A stretch of DNA of 64,000 nucleotides, from the NCBI GenBank assembly GCA_947457465.1, contig CANGWB010000001.1, positions 248,001-312,000 on the forward strand, written 5' to 3'. This document shows, in pieces, positions 38,200 to 48,379 of this stretch (positions are counted from its first letter, which is position 1; every line of letters begins with the position of its first letter). This stretch comes from Chitinophagaceae bacterium (GTDB lineage Bacteria; Bacteroidota; Bacteroidia; Chitinophagales; Chitinophagaceae). A program made the position numbers and the translations under genes. Below the pieces are notes generated by a model. It had not been told where the DNA came from and made no database searches. It worked only from the letters and a program-made list of their open reading frames with translations.

Positions 38200-40347
38200 T
38201 CAATAACGCTTAGACCGATAATCCTTTACTTCCGCTGCATTGCGCAGAATAGAAAGTGGATTATTTGGGCTATACTGGTTGCTAAGGGCTTGTTTGGCTT
38301 GTTCCGTCCGAGCCTTACGCTGCTCTTGTATGTCGCCGGCTAAAACAGGGGTGGTGGATTGTTGATCGACCCGAACCACAAAAACACCCGCCAGTCCTGG
38401 AATGGCTGTAGTCACCACCTTGCCTTGGTTTGCCGGGTTGAAGGCAACACCCAGTACGCGAGGTTCAAATCCGATCGCCACATTCTGAGTGCCGGTCATC
38501 CGCAGGCTGTCGCCCACTTCGATCGTTTTTCCACCCAACGCCGTTGCGGCCGCTTCAAGAGTGGTAATGGCTCCTATCTTGGCTTGAATCGCTGCTGCTT
38601 TTTTACGATTTCTGAGCATCGGCTCCACGGAAGGTCTGGCTTTTTCTGCCGACATGGTTCCCTCCTCCAACACCTCCGTAACCGCAGCAACCACATAGTT
38701 ATTTTCAATACGCTCAGGCTTCAGGACCTCACCCAGATCAGCCCCATAAATAGCGCGAACAAATCCTCTCGACAAGCCGAGTCCGGGGACCTCAGAAGAC
38801 CATGATGGAATGTTGGGTGCTTGGTTGCGTGTGAACCCCTTCGACTTCCACTTCTTCTCGTAGTTTGTTTCGAACGCCTTATGATCGCGGCTTTCCGCAG
38901 CAAACTCGTTGGCTTGGTTCAGCGCAGCGTTATCTGTTTCTTGACTAGCCACGATCTCTCTTGGGAGATAGGCTACTTTATAGTGAGTAGTTGGCTTAAT
39001 GAATGATTGGATCTCTATGTAGTGATATCCGAAAGATGTTTTTACCACCTTGCGCTCGCCCGGCTTTCCGTCGAATAAGATGAACTTGGCAAACTCAGGA
39101 GCAAAGCCTTCATCTTGGATCTGTGTAGAGCTGAATGTCATTTCTCCAGCAGCCTGACGACTTCCGTCTGACTGGGGGTTGTATTTATTTACCATCTCGC
39201 CCCAGTTCGCTCCACCCTCGATAGCCTTCTTAACACTATCGATTTTTGCTGCTGCTAGGCTGTCCGCAAATCCTCCGTTGGCGATATCATTAGATATTAA
39301 TACGTGTCTGCACTTTACAGAGTCCGGAAGGATCTTTGACCCCATCATGCGGGCAACCACATAGCTGTTTCCATCCAAATAAGGTCCGTATACACCACCA
39401 ACAGGCAGGCGAAAAATTGAATCTTTCACCGCTATCTGCACCGTGTTTGCATTGATATAGCCATCAAAGAAATTGGCGCCCTCGCTGGCTAAAAACATTC
39501 CAACACTGTCTGCTGTTGCTAACTTTTCTTTTAACTGTGAAATCTCTTGTAAAACGGCCGCACTGTCGGTGGGTGAAGGGGCTGCAGAAAATGAAACATA
39601 AGCGATCGACCGGGATTCCTGCTGTTTGAATTGCTTCGGATATTTCGAAACATACTCATTGATCTCAGCATCTGTGACCTTAATCGTACTATCGGGGATA
39701 GAAGTATAATTCTCTTTCACAAAAGAGATTTTCGCGAGGCGACTGTTGTCTGAATTTTGTTTTTCAACCAACCACTTCGGGGTGTTCAGGCTATTAGAGA
39801 AAACAGCATTAAACTTCTCATACTGCCGCTCCAACACCATATTGTTTAGAAGTTGATTAAGTTGTGTCTTCTGGTTCGCGTCGCCACTTTTTCTGATCTG
39901 GGCGATGGTTTGTTGTACCGCGGCCGGATTATACGGCTCTTGTGGGTTGCTTAAATACTGACGCGCTATAGAAGACGGGTTTGTACCATATAATAAGTCA
40001 TTCAACTCTTTCTTACCAACAGAAATACCCAGATCGGAAAAAGATTGACTTAATACGATCTGATTGATTTCCTGATTCCAAGCTTTATCCAGCGCCTGTT
40101 GAGAGAGTGCTGCTGTTTGTGGATACCCCTGTGATTTCAATCCCTCTTCTTCCTGAGTCACCTTATCATTAAACTCATCAAAAAGAACTTTCTTACCATT
40201 CACCACACCAATCGTGTTAGGAAGTGAACTCATTCCGCGGGATTGACTAGAGAAATAATCAGTCAGAATAAAACCCACAAGCGCCAGCGCGATCAGAACC
40301 ACGGTAACCTTTGCATACTTATCCCGGATATCCTGTATAACAGACAT
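38200..40347 (-). CDS. PpiD/SurA-type membrane-anchored peptidylprolyl isomerase
   Basis: 715 residues. One N-terminal membrane helix (about 15-32, TVVLIALALVGFIL) places the rest in the periplasm. A SurA-N-like chaperone domain (about 45-230), a central parvulin/rotamase domain (CRHVLISND onward, about 345-455) and a C-terminal domain follow. It acts in folding of exported and outer-membrane proteins. The promoter lies inside the AT-rich intergenic region that holds the DnaA-box-like cluster. Confidence 0.92.
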   Translation of the reverse strand: MSVIQDIRDKYAKVTVVLIALALVGFILTDYFSSQSRGMSSLPNTIGVVNGKKVLFDEFNDKVTQEEEGLKSQGYPQTAALSQQALDKAWNQEINQIVLSQSFSDLGISVGKKELNDLLYGTNPSSIARQYLSNPQEPYNPAAVQQTIAQIRKSGDANQKTQLNQLLNNMVLERQYEKFNAVFSNSLNTPKWLVEKQNSDNSRLAKISFVKENYTSIPDSTIKVTDAEINEYVSKYPKQFKQQESRSIAYVSFSAAPSPTDSAAVLQEISQLKEKLATADSVGMFLASEGANFFDGYINANTVQIAVKDSIFRLPVGGVYGPYLDGNSYVVARMMGSKILPDSVKCRHVLISNDIANGGFADSLAAAKIDSVKKAIEGGANWGEMVNKYNPQSDGSRQAAGEMTFSSTQIQDEGFAPEFAKFILFDGKPGERKVVKTSFGYHYIEIQSFIKPTTHYKVAYLPREIVASQETDNAALNQANEFAAESRDHKAFETNYEKKWKSKGFTRNQAPNIPSWSSEVPGLGLSRGFVRAIYGADLGEVLKPERIENNYVVAAVTEVLEEGTMSAEKARPSVEPMLRNRKKAAAIQAKIGAITTLEAAATALGGKTIEVGDSLRMTGTQNVAIGFEPRVLGVAFNPANQGKVVTTAIPGLAGVFVVRVDQQSTTPVLAGDIQEQRKARTEQAKQALSNQYSPNNPLSILRNAAEVKDYRSKRY

Positions 40348-40368
40348 AAATACAATTATTTAGGGTGG

Positions 40369-40376
40369 CAAAAATA
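40369..40376 (-). promoter_or_regulatory. -7 element of ppiD-like gene
   Basis: Minus-strand TATTTTTG is a perfect -7 element 21 bases before the ATG. Confidence 0.5.
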
Positions 40377-40874
40377 GGTTTTTATGGGTTAGTTTTTGTC
40401 TAAAATGAAGCGATCCTCTCCTGATATTTTATTATAAAACATTGATTTTCAATTAATTTTTTTAAAAACAGTAATCTTCCATAATCCCCACTTATTTGGG
40501 TAAAAGAGGAACAATTTCTCCCCAATTAGGGTGTGGATTTGTTGTGGATTGTGTGGATTTGGCTTTCATTTTATTTTTACTTCTGTCGATAATATGTCAG
40601 TTTATTTTTAAGTAGACCTAGATGTTTGGGATGGTGGTGAAAATTCAACTCTTATCAACAGTTGTATTTTTATTTTATTGGTATTATATAATCCTACGAA
40701 CTGTTTCTATTTCAGCTCTTTATTAATTTTTTATCTGTTGTTTGGTTAGGTTATCAACAAATCCACAGATATAATAGTAATAGAGTTTTTATAAAATATA
40801 TATTACTTATACTAGTATTTAGAGACCCGAGATGGATATTTTATTTTTCAAAATCATTAATCGAATATTGCCAA
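40377..40874. other. AT-rich intergenic region with DnaA-box-like cluster; candidate oriC
   Basis: About 500 bases without a gene. It holds six DnaA-box-like 9-mers: TGTGGATTT at 40532, TGTGGATTG at 40543, TGTGGATTT at 40552 (spaced 11 and 9 bases), TTATCAACA at 40652 and 40751, and AAATCCACA at 40759, overlapping the last by one base. AT-rich blocks that could unwind lie at 40423-40468 and 40780-40815. The TTATCAACA copies differ from TTATCCACA at one position and the AAATCCACA type at two. Two parS-like sites occur 7 kb away. An origin is therefore plausible but not shown; dnaA is not adjacent. Confidence 0.5.
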
Positions 40875-41897
40875 ATGAAAAAAGCAAACCATCGGTTTTT
40901 ATTTCTCCTGGCGAGTTTCTTTACAATCTCAACTTTTGCTCAGTCTTTATCTTTTCCCGGTACCAGAATGGGTAATTACACGGGAGTACAGTCGGTCTTT
41001 TTTAACCCTACTCAAGTAGCAGATTCACACTATTCGTTCGATCTTAATTTATTTGGAATCAACGCTGGTTTTGAAAATAACAAAGCCAGTTATTCTTTGA
41101 GTAATGTTTTTAGTTCGTTCAATTCCGATGATGTGTTGAACAGTTTATTCAGCAGAGATGGTCGAATTAGCGGACAATTAAATGTGGACGTATTAGGTCC
41201 CTCTCTTCAGATAAGCTTACCGAAAAATCCGGAATTACCTTTACTAGCAGACTTCGTGCATAATTTTCAATAACTGACCTTGATGGTAAATCTGCTAAAA
41301 CAATTTTGAATGATCTGAATAATCAGATTAACTTCCCATATACCATTTTCGCTGGTAATAATATGCGAATCAATACGAATGGTTGGGCAGAATTTGGATT
41401 AACATATGGTCGGGTTTTAATGGAGGATAAAAATCATTTAATAAAAGGAGGTGTTATCTAGTAGCCCATATTTTGCACCCTCTCCAAGCAACAACAACGC
41501 AACCCTTCCCGTTAGTTTACCAACATCCTTACAGGTTTTTGGAGACCTTCATCTTTTATCAAATCTTTATCTATCTGCTGGCACACAAATAGGGCTTTTT
41601 AATTGTAATAAAGCTGAATACCCTTTTATATATTCTACTCTTATACTTACTCCGCGATATGAGGGAAAGGCGATAGGGTTATACTTACCCGTGACCTATA
41701 ATAACCTTAAGCAATTAACAATGGGTGCTACACTACGCCTCGGACCCTTATTTGTCGGATCAGGAAGCATCCTGTCTGCCCTCTTATCGAACTCCAAACA
41801 AGCAGACATTAACCTTGGCCTTCATATCGGCGACTTGAAGAAAAAAAAGAATAAAGAAAAAAATGAGGATGCACCCATAATACAACCCAACCGCTAA
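40875..41897 (+). pseudogene. Decayed DUF5723-like outer-membrane protein gene
   Basis: Frame 1 from 40875 encodes a signal peptide (ending TFAQ) and the family-type start (LSFPGTRMGNYTGVQSVFFNP), and stops at 41273. The next frame continues the protein from about 41268 (ITDLDGKSAKTILND, GWAEFGLTYGRVLM) and stops at 41459. A third frame from 41451 continues to 41897 with the C-terminal barrel part. So there is one frameshift near 41268 and a second break near 41450, where the middle of the protein, which in relatives follows LTYGRV, is missing. Intact members are about 450-500 residues. The DNA is AT-rich relative to its neighbours. Confidence 0.75.
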
Positions 41898-43531
41898 TTA
41901 TTCACCAACTCCACTAATTTTAGCTTCGTACACAAGATTTGTCGTGTTTCTGGATTAAGGAACTTTATTCCAATGCGAGTAATTTCATAATCGGTTACAG
42001 ACCACTCTCGTTTCCAAACAATACCTTTTTTAATTAACTCAGCTTCTTGTTTCTGATCAAAAAGCAAAAAGGACCCATTATTCTCCACTGCTCCAATTTC
42101 TATTCCCGCTCGCAATTGTTTATAATAAAAATAAAAAGATGAGCTATAAAAACCTTCCAGTGATAGGACAGGTTTATTAAAATTTTCATTTTCCAACACA
42201 CTCGCCAATTCTTTACCCCCCTGGTATCGGAGCAGGGAGGGGTAAAAACCTACATTCAATATCCAGAAAATAACAAACACACCAGCAGCGATATTTTTTA
42301 TTTGATTTATAATATCTCCACCACTATTTTTTTTGTTGACATAAAACATGTTAATCAATAAGACTGTAAATCCAACCCAAAACATTACGGATTGTTGAGG
42401 AAACCACCATACTAAAACAAGAGAAGATATTACACCAATCAATAACCAAACGATCCACATAGTCCACTTTAATATGGGCTGAACCATCTCTTCTTTCCTA
42501 ATTGTTAATTCAGCTACACAAAGAGCGGCTAGTGGTAAAATCACATTTAAATAATGTGGGAGCTTAAAACTTGATAATCCTAACAACACAGCAAAAACAA
42601 TAAGAACCCCAATAACCGATTTTGCAATTACCCCTAACTGTTTACCCCCTTTTTTTATTATCAATGACGAAATTAGCAAAATACTCCAAGGGGCAAAGGC
42701 CCATAAAAATGTATGAAAGAAAAATAACTTATCACCCTTTCCATCTCCACCCATTTCACCTCCGTAGCGGCCAATTGACTGATCTAATAAGATAAAGCGG
42801 ATTCCATTAATATGATCCTTTCCACGCACCACCACTTCGGGGTGTAGATTAAACTGCTTGTAGTAACAGTATACTACCGGCAATATAAACAATAGAAATA
42901 GCGCAATGCCACCCAGGACGTTTAAATTGAATAGAGGCTTCCAATCCCCCCTAAAAAACATGTAGAATAGTGCAAACAATACAGGAATTACAATCGCTAT
43001 ATGTCCCTTAGTACAAAATCCGATTGCAAGTCCCGCAGCTAAGCCTAGCATATATCTTCTCGAACCAAATTTTAGATATCCGAGCAATTGCCAAATTGAT
43101 ATCGCTACACTGGACGTGAGGATTGCGTCCATGCGCACATCATTAAGCGACAATAAAAAGGAGGCAGAGCTGGCGTAAACAACCGCCGCAACAAGCCCCG
43201 TATTTTTATTGTTTATCAGTATGCCAGATCGATAAACCGACCATATGCCAATTAAGGAAAAAAGAAAAGAGGGGAACTTGTATGCAAATCCTGTTACGCC
43301 AAACAGATGATAGGATAATGCTGTTAGCCAAAAATGAAGGTGAGGCTTATCTAAATAAGGGCCGTCGTAATCAATCAGACTTACATAGTCACCTGTCAAA
43401 TACATTCGCAAAGCAATGTTTGCATGATGTGCCGAGTCATTATCCATTAACGGAACAAACAACCCAGCCACGACTACTACCAACCAGGCTAGAATGATCT
43501 GTATTTGTCCTCGGTGTCCCCCTGAAACCAT
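41894..43531 (-). CDS. GT39/ArnT-like membrane glycosyltransferase
   Basis: 545 residues. The first periplasmic loop has the ArnT/PMT-type acidic motif (PLMDNDSAHHANIALRMY) and DGPYLDKPHLHFW. About eleven hydrophobic helices follow, then a short C-terminal soluble domain. It should add a sugar from a polyprenyl carrier to lipid A or protein. Codon and base use is clearly more AT-rich than in the first GT39 gene (17573), which suggests acquisition. It overlaps the DUF5723 pseudogene by 4 bases at its 3' end. Confidence 0.88.
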   Translation of the reverse strand: MVSGGHRGQIQIILAWLVVVVAGLFVPLMDNDSAHHANIALRMYLTGDYVSLIDYDGPYLDKPHLHFWLTALSYHLFGVTGFAYKFPSFLFSLIGIWSVYRSGILINNKNTGLVAAVVYASSASFLLSLNDVRMDAILTSSVAISIWQLLGYLKFGSRRYMLGLAAGLAIGFCTKGHIAIVIPVLFALFYMFFRGDWKPLFNLNVLGGIALFLLFILPVVYCYYKQFNLHPEVVVRGKDHINGIRFILLDQSIGRYGGEMGGDGKGDKLFFFHTFLWAFAPWSILLISSLIIKKGGKQLGVIAKSVIGVLIVFAVLLGLSSFKLPHYLNVILPLAALCVAELTIRKEEMVQPILKWTMWIVWLLIGVISSLVLVWWFPQQSVMFWVGFTVLLINMFYVNKKNSGGDIINQIKNIAAGVFVIFWILNVGFYPSLLRYQGGKELASVLENENFNKPVLSLEGFYSSSFYFYYKQLRAGIEIGAVENNGSFLLFDQKQEAELIKKGIVWKREWSVTDYEITRIGIKFLNPETRQILCTKLKLVELVNN

Positions 43532-43677
43532 TTCTTACCCTTTTGTCTGTTAAAAGTAGGATGTACGTAAGCCCAACCCGCCACAAAATCAATGGATTAC
43601 ACAGTTTAACAAAAAAACAAATTCTTTATAAACATATTGTTTAAACACTAGTTAGTATATATTAAACAAAACACACC

Positions 43678-44363
43678 ATAATTAAGAACGCTCTTTTTGG
43701 AATTGCCCTTCTGGGTTTTTTGTCCCCTGCGATAAGGATGAGGCCCCTGTTGAAACCGCAAAGGTTAATGTGATCCACGTCTCTCCCGACGCTCCCGGTG
43801 TTGATCTTTTAGTAGATAATAACAAAGTGAATAACAGCGCATTAACATTTCCTAACGCAACAGGATACCTGACTGTAAATGCTGGCACAAGAAACTTCAA
43901 AGTAAATGCAGCCGGCACAACAACAACTGTAATAAATGCAGATCTGCCATTTGTAAAGGATAAAAGCTATTCTTTATATGCTTTTAAGCGTCTCGCATCC
44001 ATCGGCGCGTTCATGGTTGAGGACAACCTTGCCACACCAGCTGCCGGTCAGGCGCATATCCGCTTCTTCCACCTGAGACCAGATGCCCCTGCTGTAACAG
44101 TCGGAACACTTGCCGGCGGAACATTCAGCCCGGTTTTCTCAAATCGTGCCTTTGAGACACAAGCCACCGCTACCGCAAACCAGGGATTCACCCCCGTTCC
44201 TGCCGGAACCTACACGTTTGATGTGCGTGTTGCTGGCGCATCTGTATTAAATGTTCCTGGTGTTGCTTTAGCCGCTGGAAAAATCTATACTGTCTTTGCG
44301 AGAGGATTGGTTGCTGGAACCGGCGCACAAGCCCTCGGTGCACAGATCGTTACACACAACTAA
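43678..44363 (+). pseudogene. DUF4397 lipoprotein gene with broken N-terminus
   Basis: The DUF4397 domain (NVIHVSPDAPGVDLLVDN, then a repeat-like second half with IRFFHLRPDAPAV) is intact from 43728 to 44363. The signal peptide IKNALFGIALLGF is encoded in a different frame (43681-43719), and its first codon is ATT or ATA, not ATG. Adding one T to the T6 run at 43716-43721 would join it to FFVPCDKDEAP, a proper lipobox. So a one-base loss in a homopolymer plus loss of the start codon separate the secretion signal from the domain. A GTG at 43770 could start only a leaderless cytosolic form. Confidence 0.7.
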
Positions 44364-45707: not shown

Positions 45708-45740
45708 AAAGGGGGTCGGCATGCAGGCCCCCTTTATTTT
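45708..45740 (+). terminator. Intrinsic terminator of ssb
   Basis: AAAGGGGG (45708-45715) pairs with CCCCCTTT (45728-45735), followed by ATTTTAT. It touches the mnmG stop on the other strand. Confidence 0.8.
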
Positions 45741-47601
45741 ATCTACCCATGTACACCATCAATATTTGAACATCACTTGGGTTGATTCCCGAAATCCGAC
45801 TTGCTTGTCCAAGTGTTCTTGGTCGCACCTTCTCCAGCTTTTCCCTTGCCTCATTACCAAGCGACCCGATCCGCGCATAATCAAACCGCTCTGGAATCTC
45901 TAACTCCTCCATCTGTGCCATACGCGACACTAGCTCCCTCTCTTTATCTAAATAAACTTGGTATTTGATCTGAATACCCGCCTGCTCAAGCGATTCGACA
46001 TCATATTGTTGTAAGCCCCCCTTCAGTTTGGGACACGTTTCCATAAAAGCATTCAAATCCACATCAGGGCGAAGTACGATCCTTGACGCTTTTTGCTTTT
46101 CACCAATTGGCGCAGACCCCAACGACAACAACCAATTATTCACCTCATCCGGCTCAATAGAAGTCGTATTCAAAAAATCTTTAATACTTGAAATGGCTGA
46201 TGATTTTTTCTCTACTCTATCCATGCGATCCTGGCTCGCTAAACCAATTCGATAGCTCATCTCAGTTAATCGTAGATCGGCATTGTCTTGTCGCAACAGC
46301 GTTCGATATTCTGCCCTCGACGTAAACATTCGATAAGGCTCTTTGGTGCCCTTGCTGATCAAGTCGTCAATCAATACGCCGATATAGGCGTCGCTTCTTT
46401 TCAACACTAGCGGATTCTCCTCCTTTGATCTTCTGTGTGCATTGATCCCCGCCATCAAACCCTGACACGCCGCCTCCTCATATCCGGTTGTTCCATTGAT
46501 CTGTCCAGCAAAGAAAAGATTTCGTAAGTGCTTGGTTTCCAAGGAGTAATCTAGTTGTGTGGGCGGAAAGTAGTCGTATTCTATAGCATATCCGGGTCTG
46601 AACATGCGTACATTTTCAAAACCCGGAACCCGTCTTAATGCTTCATACTGAACATCCTCCGGAAGGGATGTAGAAAACCCATTCACATAAATCTCAACCG
46701 TATTCCAACCCTCCGGCTCAATGAAAAGCTGGTGTCTGTCCCGGTCAGAGAAACGGTTGATCTTATCCTCAATACTCGGACAATACCTGGGGCCTACCCC
46801 ATCAATACGACCCGCAAACATCGGACTCCTGTCAAAACCGGTCTTTAGTACATCATGAACCGAAGGGTCCGTATAGGCGATCCAACAACTTCTTTGTTCG
46901 GTCGGCTTTGGTACATCCTGAAATGAAAATCCAACCACCTGATCATCACCGGGCTGCTCCTCCATTTTAGAATAATCTAAGCTTCTACCATCAATCCGCG
47001 GCGGAGTACCGGTTTTTAACCTATCGCTCTCAAAACCAAACCCAACAAGCTGTTCGGTAATACCCGAAGCGGCTCTTTCAGCCATCCGACCACCACCAAA
47101 ATTCTTTTCTCCTATATGAACTACGCCATTTAAAAAGGTTCCGTTCGTCAAAACCACAGCATCGGACAAAATCTCGTGCCCCATACCAGTCACCACCCCC
47201 AAGCAGCGGCCCTCTTTTACCACCAACCCCTTCACCATATCCTGGTAAAAATCAAGATTAGGCGTCTGCTCCAGCATCTCTCGCCACTTCTGAGTAAATA
47301 ACATACGGTCGCTCTGCGCTCGCGGACTCCACATAGCAGGACCCTTGCTCCTGTTTAGCATGCGGAACTGTATCATGGATAGATCCGTCACAATCCCCGA
47401 ATACCCGCCCATCGCATCTATCTCTCTAACAATCTGGCCCTTTGCAATACCCCCCATAGCCGGATTACAGCTCATCTGAGCAATGGTCTGCATGTTCATG
47501 GTGATCAAAAGAGTCTTTGACCCCAAATTGGCAGCCGCCGCCGCCGCCTCACAGCCGGCATGACCAGCCCCAACCACAATTACATCATACTTGGGAAACA
47601 T
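45739..47601 (-). CDS. mnmG: tRNA U34 carboxymethylaminomethyl synthase subunit MnmG (GidA)
   Basis: 620 residues. With MnmE it installs the carboxymethylaminomethyl group on wobble uridine, using FAD and methylene-tetrahydrofolate. The FAD-binding motif VVGAGHAGCEAAAAAANLG is at residues 9-27, with family blocks CNPAMGGIAKGQIVREIDAMGG, TGTPPRIDGRSLDY, GPRYCPSIEDKI and the C-terminal helical YARIGSLGNEAREKLEKVRP (in pieces). MnmG (gidA) often lies near the replication origin. A perfect -7 element and two parS-like sites are upstream. Confidence 0.97.
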   Translation of the reverse strand: MFPKYDVIVVGAGHAGCEAAAAAANLGSKTLLITMNMQTIAQMSCNPAMGGIAKGQIVREIDAMGGYSGIVTDLSMIQFRMLNRSKGPAMWSPRAQSDRMLFTQKWREMLEQTPNLDFYQDMVKGLVVKEGRCLGVVTGMGHEILSDAVVLTNGTFLNGVVHIGEKNFGGGRMAERAASGITEQLVGFGFESDRLKTGTPPRIDGRSLDYSKMEEQPGDDQVVGFSFQDVPKPTEQRSCWIAYTDPSVHDVLKTGFDRSPMFAGRIDGVGPRYCPSIEDKINRFSDRDRHQLFIEPEGWNTVEIYVNGFSTSLPEDVQYEALRRVPGFENVRMFRPGYAIEYDYFPPTQLDYSLETKHLRNLFFAGQINGTTGYEEAACQGLMAGINAHRRSKEENPLVLKRSDAYIGVLIDDLISKGTKEPYRMFTSRAEYRTLLRQDNADLRLTEMSYRIGLASQDRMDRVEKKSSAISSIKDFLNTTSIEPDEVNNWLLSLGSAPIGEKQKASRIVLRPDVDLNAFMETCPKLKGGLQQYDVESLEQAGIQIKYQVYLDKERELVSRMAQMEELEIPERFDYARIGSLGNEAREKLEKVRPRTLGQASRISGINPSDVQILMVYMGR

Positions 47602-47605
47602 GGCG

Positions 47606-47613
47606 CAAAATTA
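47606..47613 (-). promoter_or_regulatory. -7 element of mnmG
   Basis: Minus-strand TAATTTTG, a perfect -7 element, ends 4 bases before the mnmG ATG, predicting a leaderless mRNA. Confidence 0.62.
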
Positions 47614-47614
47614 C

Positions 47615-47644
47615 GTTGAGGAGTTGAGGAGAGAAGGTGTTGAG
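47615..47644. repeat. GTTGAG short repeat (left copy)
   Basis: Three GTTGAG units lie within 30 bases just upstream of mnmG. The reverse complement of the same repeat occurs at 47935-47951, at the ybeY stop codon, so the parS-bearing gap is framed by inverted copies. Confidence 0.5.
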
Positions 47645-47756
47645 TAGTTTATAAAACACAAAAACAACCTTAATCGACTAGAAAACTGTGATTTATACCA
47701 CAAAACAAGAGTTTGGGCGCAGATTTGCCCTACCGTACCCACCTCGACCGGATTGA

Positions 47757-47772
47757 TGTTCCACGTGGAACG
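47757..47772. promoter_or_regulatory. parS-like centromere site 1
   Basis: TGTTCCACGTGGAACG contains a perfect 14-base palindrome (GTTCCACGTGGAAC). It matches the ParB-binding consensus TGTTNCACGTGAAACA at all but two positions. It lies in the 343-base gap upstream of mnmG, with a second site 101 bases away. Confidence 0.8.
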
Positions 47773-47857
47773 CCGATCAAAATAATCTAACTAATTGGGG
47801 AGACCACATCCACCTCGTGTCGGGTAGCCGAACACCCCAAGGGACCTCGATACTTTA

Positions 47858-47873
47858 CGTTCCACGTGAAACA
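47858..47873. promoter_or_regulatory. parS-like centromere site 2
   Basis: CGTTCCACGTGAAACA matches the parS consensus TGTTNCACGTGAAACA at every position except the first. ParB binds such sites to load and spread for chromosome segregation, and they cluster near the replication origin. The rest of the 47602-47944 gap carries only the short GTTGAG repeats and pyrimidine-rich sequence; no gene is supported there. Confidence 0.88.
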
Positions 47874-47934
47874 CCCCGGCCCCAACCTTCCGAACTCTCT
47901 CAACCCACCAACGTCTCATCTGCTCACCCCTCAT

Positions 47935-47951
47935 CCCTCAACCCTCAACTC
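47935..47951. repeat. GTTGAG short repeat (right, inverted copy)
   Basis: CCCTCAACCCTCAACTC is the reverse complement of the GTTGAGG repeat at 47615-47644 and overlaps the ybeY stop codon. The preceding 60 bases are pyrimidine-rich and related in character. Confidence 0.45.
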
Positions 47952-48379
47952 TTCACCCACTTGTCCAGATAATAGTCCTCTCTTTCTCTCATGGCTTTTA
48001 TTTCCGCCTTTGTTTTGTCTCCATATCCACACAAATGAAGAGCGCCATGGAAAATAACCCGATGAAGCTCGGATCGAAGGGTGTTCTTCTGTTTTTGGGC
48101 ATTATCCCGAACCCGGTCGAGGCTTATGTAGATCTCGGCAGTTACCAGGCTGGATTCTGAGAGGTCAAAGGTGATGATGTCGGTATAATAGTCGTGTTTC
48201 AGGAATTGTCTGTTGATTTCCAGCAATCGCTTGTCTGTGCAGAAGATATAGTTGATCGATTCAATTCGCTTTCCTTCCTTTTTAAAAAGGGAATGAATGA
48301 ATGCTTTAAGAAGGGTGCGGTTTTGTAGGCTAACCGATTTATTCTCAAAGAAGAACTGGATTTTGGCGGGCGTCGACAT
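47945..48379 (-). CDS. ybeY: rRNA maturation endoribonuclease YbeY
   Basis: 144 residues of the UPF0054 metalloprotein family, needed for 16S rRNA 3'-end maturation and ribosome quality control. The metal site motif is HGALHLCGYGDKT (about 108-120): the first two His ligands are present, while the third position of the proteobacterial HxxxHxxGYxH motif is Asp, as I know from other Bacteroidota members. The N-terminal part with YIFCTDKRLLEINRQFLKHDYYTDIITFDL (region about 44-73) is typical. Confidence 0.93.
   Translation of the reverse strand: MSTPAKIQFFFENKSVSLQNRTLLKAFIHSLFKKEGKRIESINYIFCTDKRLLEINRQFLKHDYYTDIITFDLSESSLVTAEIYISLDRVRDNAQKQKNTLRSELHRVIFHGALHLCGYGDKTKAEIKAMREREDYYLDKWVKS

Follow-up and report, generated by a model that had tools for sequence, protein, structure and literature searches.

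What are the two short palindromes that stand upstream of mnmG in this 64,000-nucleotide stretch of DNA (the window), and what do they reveal about where the chromosome is partitioned and replicated? Sequence comparison indicates that they are very probably chromosomal parS sites, that is, the DNA part of a ParABS system in a Chitinophagaceae-type bacterium. The partition system is of a known kind; an address at mnmG that is met again in much of the phylum, the remoteness of dnaA and parAB, and the imperfect sites of related genomes put it slightly above routine annotation.

Two palindromes in the mnmG-ybeY gap

Both palindromes lie in a single gene-free gap of 343 bases (47602..47944), flanked on one side by mnmG (gidA; 45739..47601, minus strand; TIGR00136, 835 bits with a cut-off of 525), the conserved neighbor of the sites, and on the opposite side by ybeY (47945..48379, minus strand; TIGR00043, 90 bits with a cut-off of 45). 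The first candidate parS site, TGTTCCACGTGGAACG (47757..47772), contains the perfect 14-base palindrome GTTCCACGTGGAAC and has two mismatches to the 16-mer ParB-site consensus TGTTNCACGTGAAACA; the second, CGTTCCACGTGAAACA (47858..47873), fits the same consensus at 15 of 16 positions, and neither is assigned a strand. In both sites the deviations fall on outer bases, and each holds an exact copy of the 14-bp core GTTYCACGTGRAAC (47758-47771 and 47859-47872). The spacing is 101 bases from start to start. An earlier note on this DNA had described the letters, the mismatches, the shared gap, and the spacing in just these terms.

As the same note proposed, the whole draft genome (2,063,312 bases in 46 contigs) was scanned for parS sites; the two best are these two, with no equal score elsewhere. 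The exact core occurs in two places, both in the mnmG-ybeY gap, where 0.036 occurrences are expected in a sequence of this size under a Markov model of order 2 fitted to the contig of the window, and the reversed pattern occurs in none. Inexact cores are found at 18 other places on 14 contigs (1 with one mismatch and 17 with two), and these we regard as background, because the reversed control with two mismatches gives 9 places and an estimate from base counts gives ∼22. A scan of the window alone with the 16-mer (up to three mismatches) returned six matches, a number reached in 5 of 100 shuffles and hence only weakly above chance; the significance of the pair rests instead on the exact core, the pairing, and the conservation described below. 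The paired exact cores in this genome are not a chance occurrence. Searches of the window for Rfam families at the gathering threshold, ribosomal RNA, and tRNA found none.

The mnmG address

The exact core is present in 204 of 294 Chitinophagaceae genomes, the present one included, as compared with 3 of 294 for the reversed pattern; among the 249 genomes of good quality it is present in 181 and absent from 68. A genome of the same genus (G155) has both cores exact. In the first 30 family loci with a core that were fetched, each from a different genome, mnmG is beside or around the motif in all 30 (five of these were dropped from the positional count below since their longest mnmG segment is shorter than 300 residues, although mnmG is visible in every one).

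We also examined 80 named mnmG loci with record titles of Chitinophagaceae, Cytophagales-, Sphingobacteriales-, Flavobacteriales-, and Saprospirales-type, a grouping that is our own. Here the exact core is found in 50 loci, and two or more copies in 46, while the reversed control is found in none of the 80. No paper stating a link between parS and mnmG in the Bacteroidota was found in a search that lay mostly outside subscription journals. The earlier note had called such sites little described in this lineage, which is true to the extent that no papers on parS sites with Chitinophaga were found; on the other hand, one study (PMC10197239) reports that parS clusters served to map the origins of two Bacteroidetes species. 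Two of the loci, L121 and L178, are titled Azovibrio restrictus and Limnohabitans, respectively, and these bins look mislabeled, because their mnmG is of the Bacteroidota type (71% and 64% identity).

Could the palindromes instead be operators, recognized by a protein that controls transcription of mnmG or ybeY, with no part in partition? Their position upstream of mnmG, in the present genome and within 1.25 kb of the gene in 47 of the 80 named loci, would fit such an operator. The distance from core to mnmG start, however, varies between 21 and 944 bases across the named loci, exact cores are also seen inside mnmG (5/80) or just behind it (22/80), and the letters of the core are those of the parS core. 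A scan for sigma-70-like promoters, a class that does not include those of the Bacteroidota, gave no match in the mnmG-ybeY gap. A search for palindromes upstream of mnmG in 22 loci brought up no further site in common. In the five loci with a core within the gene (L121, L122, L123, L134, and L160), it occupies the identical place, 381 bases in.

The exceptions to the mnmG address bear on the same point. Sixteen of the 80 named loci have no site at up to one mismatch, and nine of these carry Saprospirales, Saprospiraceae, or Lewinella-type names. When eight of the 16 genomes were scanned in full, seven had exact cores elsewhere, and threonine synthase (thrC) holds or adjoins the core in five of the seven loci read, that is, in five of the eight exception genomes searched. 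The motif therefore goes with the genome rather than with one gene, and its usual location is at mnmG. The variable placement with respect to mnmG, with sites inside the gene, behind it, or at thrC, leads us to reject the operator as very improbable and to retain the parS reading. The thrC-located cores (L199, L200, L201, L203, and L204) come from five Saprospirales- or Lewinella-type genomes.

ParB and the genomes without an exact core

If the palindromes are parS sites, which protein reads them? On another contig of the genome (C39), parA and parB stand side by side with open frames, parB at 141-1058 of locus L016. The ParB protein scores 181 bits with the general ParB domain model TIGR00180, passing its cut-off of 58, and among solved protein chains its matches are to ParB, Noc, and Spo0J, with a weak one to KorB. 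With the Noc model it scores 243 bits, which is higher, and it has the permissive lysine K184; both points would suit a site that serves a nucleoid-occlusion protein rather than partition, and Noc-binding sites have the same 14-16 bp layout as parS and are read by proteins of a related family. The 243 bits, though, fall below the Noc cut-off of 315, and the protein beside ParA is the only ParB_N protein found in the genome. The specificity positions also differ: according to PMC7383237, readers of parS and of Noc sites are told apart by R173/G201 versus Q173/R201, with K184 permissive, and Noc sites have A at position 1 and C at position 6. The present ParB has R173, F179, K184, and G201, the parS type plus the permissive lysine, and each palindrome carries G at position 1 and A at position 6. 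Given parS-type bases in the sites and parS-type residues in the protein, a Noc-binding site is extremely unlikely, and we keep to parS.

The site core, the ParA-ParB pair, and R173/G201 all resemble the chromosomal ParABS centromere of the Bacillus subtilis/Caulobacter type (PMC7333895). Unlike that type, residue 172 of ParB, which adjoins the base-reading R173, is acidic: it is D in the present protein and D or E in 30 of 30 relatives (L080-L109), as against serine in the comparison of ParB and Noc proteins published in PMC7383237. These 30 relatives comprise 27 genomes without an exact core and three with one. R173 is kept in all 30, G201 in 29 (one has A), and position 184 is K or R in all 30; among the contact residues, G170 differs in four and K171 in two, in every case in genomes without an exact core. 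More generally, a ParB relative was found in all 38 family genomes searched, 30 of which lack the exact core. ScpB of the SMC complex is encoded in the present genome with an open frame, and was found in four of the five genomes searched, this one included; for the two Bacteroidetes species of PMC10197239, that study reports that no condensin is known.

By analogy with other bacteria, ParB would most likely load at the two parS sites through its helix-turn-helix, and the loaded protein would then most likely close into CTP-dependent clamps and spread by sliding. ParA would, again most likely, move the ParB complex and thereby the freshly replicated origin, which would lie ∼7 kb from the sites, and SMC-ScpAB would probably be loaded at the parS sites too. 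All of this, from ParB binding and the loading of clamps to transport, recruitment of condensin, and the firing of the origin, is carried over from other bacteria, in which ParB loading and sliding, ParA transport, and SMC-ScpAB loading are known (in part from the review PMC7333895, and in part as general background).

The exact core is absent from 90 of the 294 family genomes, including two of the same genus (G254 and G289) that keep only sites with one or two mismatches. Such losses, together with the draft state of the present assembly, could mean that the sites are inherited relics or weak parS sites, with the working centromere elsewhere or loss of the system tolerated in the lineage. Yet both cores are exact in the present genome and in its relative G155, nothing comparable occurs elsewhere in the present genome, and the frames of parA, parB, and scpB are open; we give a relic next to no probability and continue with working parS sites.

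Thirty of the 90 exact-negative genomes, picked mainly for high completeness, were examined at mnmG, and 28 have a full gene. At 17 of these 28 loci a site with a single mismatch lies no more than 1.25 kb upstream of mnmG, at five there are two-mismatch matches at best, and at six there is no match at up to two mismatches; the reversed control at up to one mismatch finds none in 28. The altered bases are mostly the outer position 1, position 6 of one half, or the center (CATGTG), and the change at position 6 gives CACGGG or CCCGTG, the base of the Noc site. With R173 and G201 retained, the pattern looks more like drift of sites that a tolerant ParB still accepts than like a complete change of specificity.

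From this comparison we put forward a broader picture, to which we would give somewhat less than an even chance: an old, largely fixed, mnmG-linked Bacteroidota centromere would have kept its place by the origin as dnaA and parAB were relocated, and about one third of the family would have drifted, partly Noc-like sites (with CACGGG, CCCGTG, and CATGTG centers) that are still read by a ParB in which R173/G201 are essentially unchanged, K184 is permissive, and position 172 holds an unusual acidic residue. If it is true, the drifted sites are a natural case of relaxed parS specificity. The joint change of parS and ParB can in any case be studied in sister genera, whose imperfect sites are natural material for it.

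Two further features were seen in individual genomes. In one (G034, locus L109), ParB has alanine at position 201, which is glycine throughout the published comparison (PMC7383237), and the sole parS-like match at mnmG has two mismatches. Upstream of mnmG in L054, L055, L110, and L113, two-mismatch parS-like matches take the form AGTGTCCCGTGAAACA, and in the first three a second copy of this form faces the first at a distance of ∼31 bases, like the arms of a hairpin.

A candidate replication origin beyond mnmG

The earlier note had suggested that the paired sites are an origin-proximal centromere. Proximity to the origin is probably correct, as first proposed, and an origin within the gap of the sites themselves is not supported: over the 9 kb around the sites, DnaA-box-like 9-mers are most crowded, and A+T content is highest, at ∼40.6-40.8 kb, so that the likely origin is instead beyond mnmG, on its far side. 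Three single-contig relatives (G018, G235, and G141), sampled in pieces of 20 kb and for G018 and G235 also over 80 kb at the parS locus, show a negative-to-positive change of GC skew close to the sites, with noisy samples elsewhere. The minimum of the cumulative skew is 14 kb past the sites in G018 and 23 kb past them in G235, and in the present contig it is 11 kb past them, with just 20 kb of contig left. The relative of the same genus, G155, by contrast has no clean skew switch, and its minimum is 83 kb off within the 207 kb fetched.

The candidate origin is a divergent, A+T-rich gap (40348..40874, no strand assigned) with four copies of AATCCACA, on either strand, and two of TTATCAACA. It was reached by a relaxed scan for DnaA boxes and comparison with the relatives; at ∼4 kb from the sites there are 12 DnaA-box-like 9-mers per 500 bases in G018 and four in G235, and in the present genome ten exact DnaA-box forms yielded one match within 20 kb of the sites, 18 kb off. 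A looser box pattern also peaks in 40348-40874 and was not counted, because most of its matches in the gap are plain A/T runs.

When the box clusters of G018 and G235 were set against the gaps richest in A+T near the sites of the window (40348-40874) and of G155, a shared element, TYCACANNNNTAATARTAATAG, emerged, which would read as a DnaA box, a short spacer, and DnaA-trios, an architecture described in PMC8287927. In the window the element is TCCACAGATATAATAGTAATAG (40762..40783, plus strand), with a box-like TCCACA, a 4-base spacer, the trio-like TAATAGTAATAG, and A+T-rich surroundings, in line with the basal unwinding system of bacterial origins; unlike what PMC8287927 describes, the letters of the box deviate from TTATCCACA, the textbook form, and dnaA is not adjacent. 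It is the sole match in the genome at up to one mismatch, the reversed control finds none there, and 6,996 bases separate the element from the closer of the two parS cores.

At up to one mismatch, the shared element occurs in 173 of the 294 family genomes, in 165 of them as a single copy, as compared with 33 of 294 for the reversed pattern. Its position relative to parS was followed in 37 genomes with listed parS places (24 compared by script and 13 without the element added by hand): the two are on the same contig in 19 and on different contigs in three, and the element is absent from 15, including G106, G190, and G121. The distance in the 19 same-contig genomes ranges from 407 to 19,412 bases, with a median of 3,877 (for G116, which has two matches, the nearer one, which is exact, was used); 15 of the 19 are independent, because the pattern was built from the other four (the present genome, G155, G018, and G235). 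In 11 exact-negative genomes in which a listed element shares a contig with mnmG, the two are 1.1 to 47.5 kb apart, and in G100 they are on separate contigs. G141, one of the relatives examined for skew, lacks the element at up to one mismatch. From these sequence features we infer that the trio-like element and its gap may be the replication origin.

With several sites close together near the likely origin, the locus resembles the Bacillus subtilis/Caulobacter-type parS arrangement (PMC7333895); it is unlike that type in that the sites are at mnmG and remote from dnaA and parAB. We rejected dnaA as a marker of the origin: in seven of seven single-contig relatives 0.78 Mb or more separates it from the sites, and in the present genome it is on another contig than the sites. 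The same caution about dnaA as an origin guide is voiced for gut bacteria in PMC10197239. In Bacteroidota genomes, drafts included, where dnaA can mislead, the mnmG-linked sites are a simple and testable marker of centromere and origin. The parAB genes are likewise at least 0.66 Mb from the sites in the seven single-contig relatives, in two of which (G004 and G141) the sites have one mismatch. Next to the candidate origin, window positions 40001-44000 have a G+C content of 36-38%, compared with ∼47% in the rest of the window.
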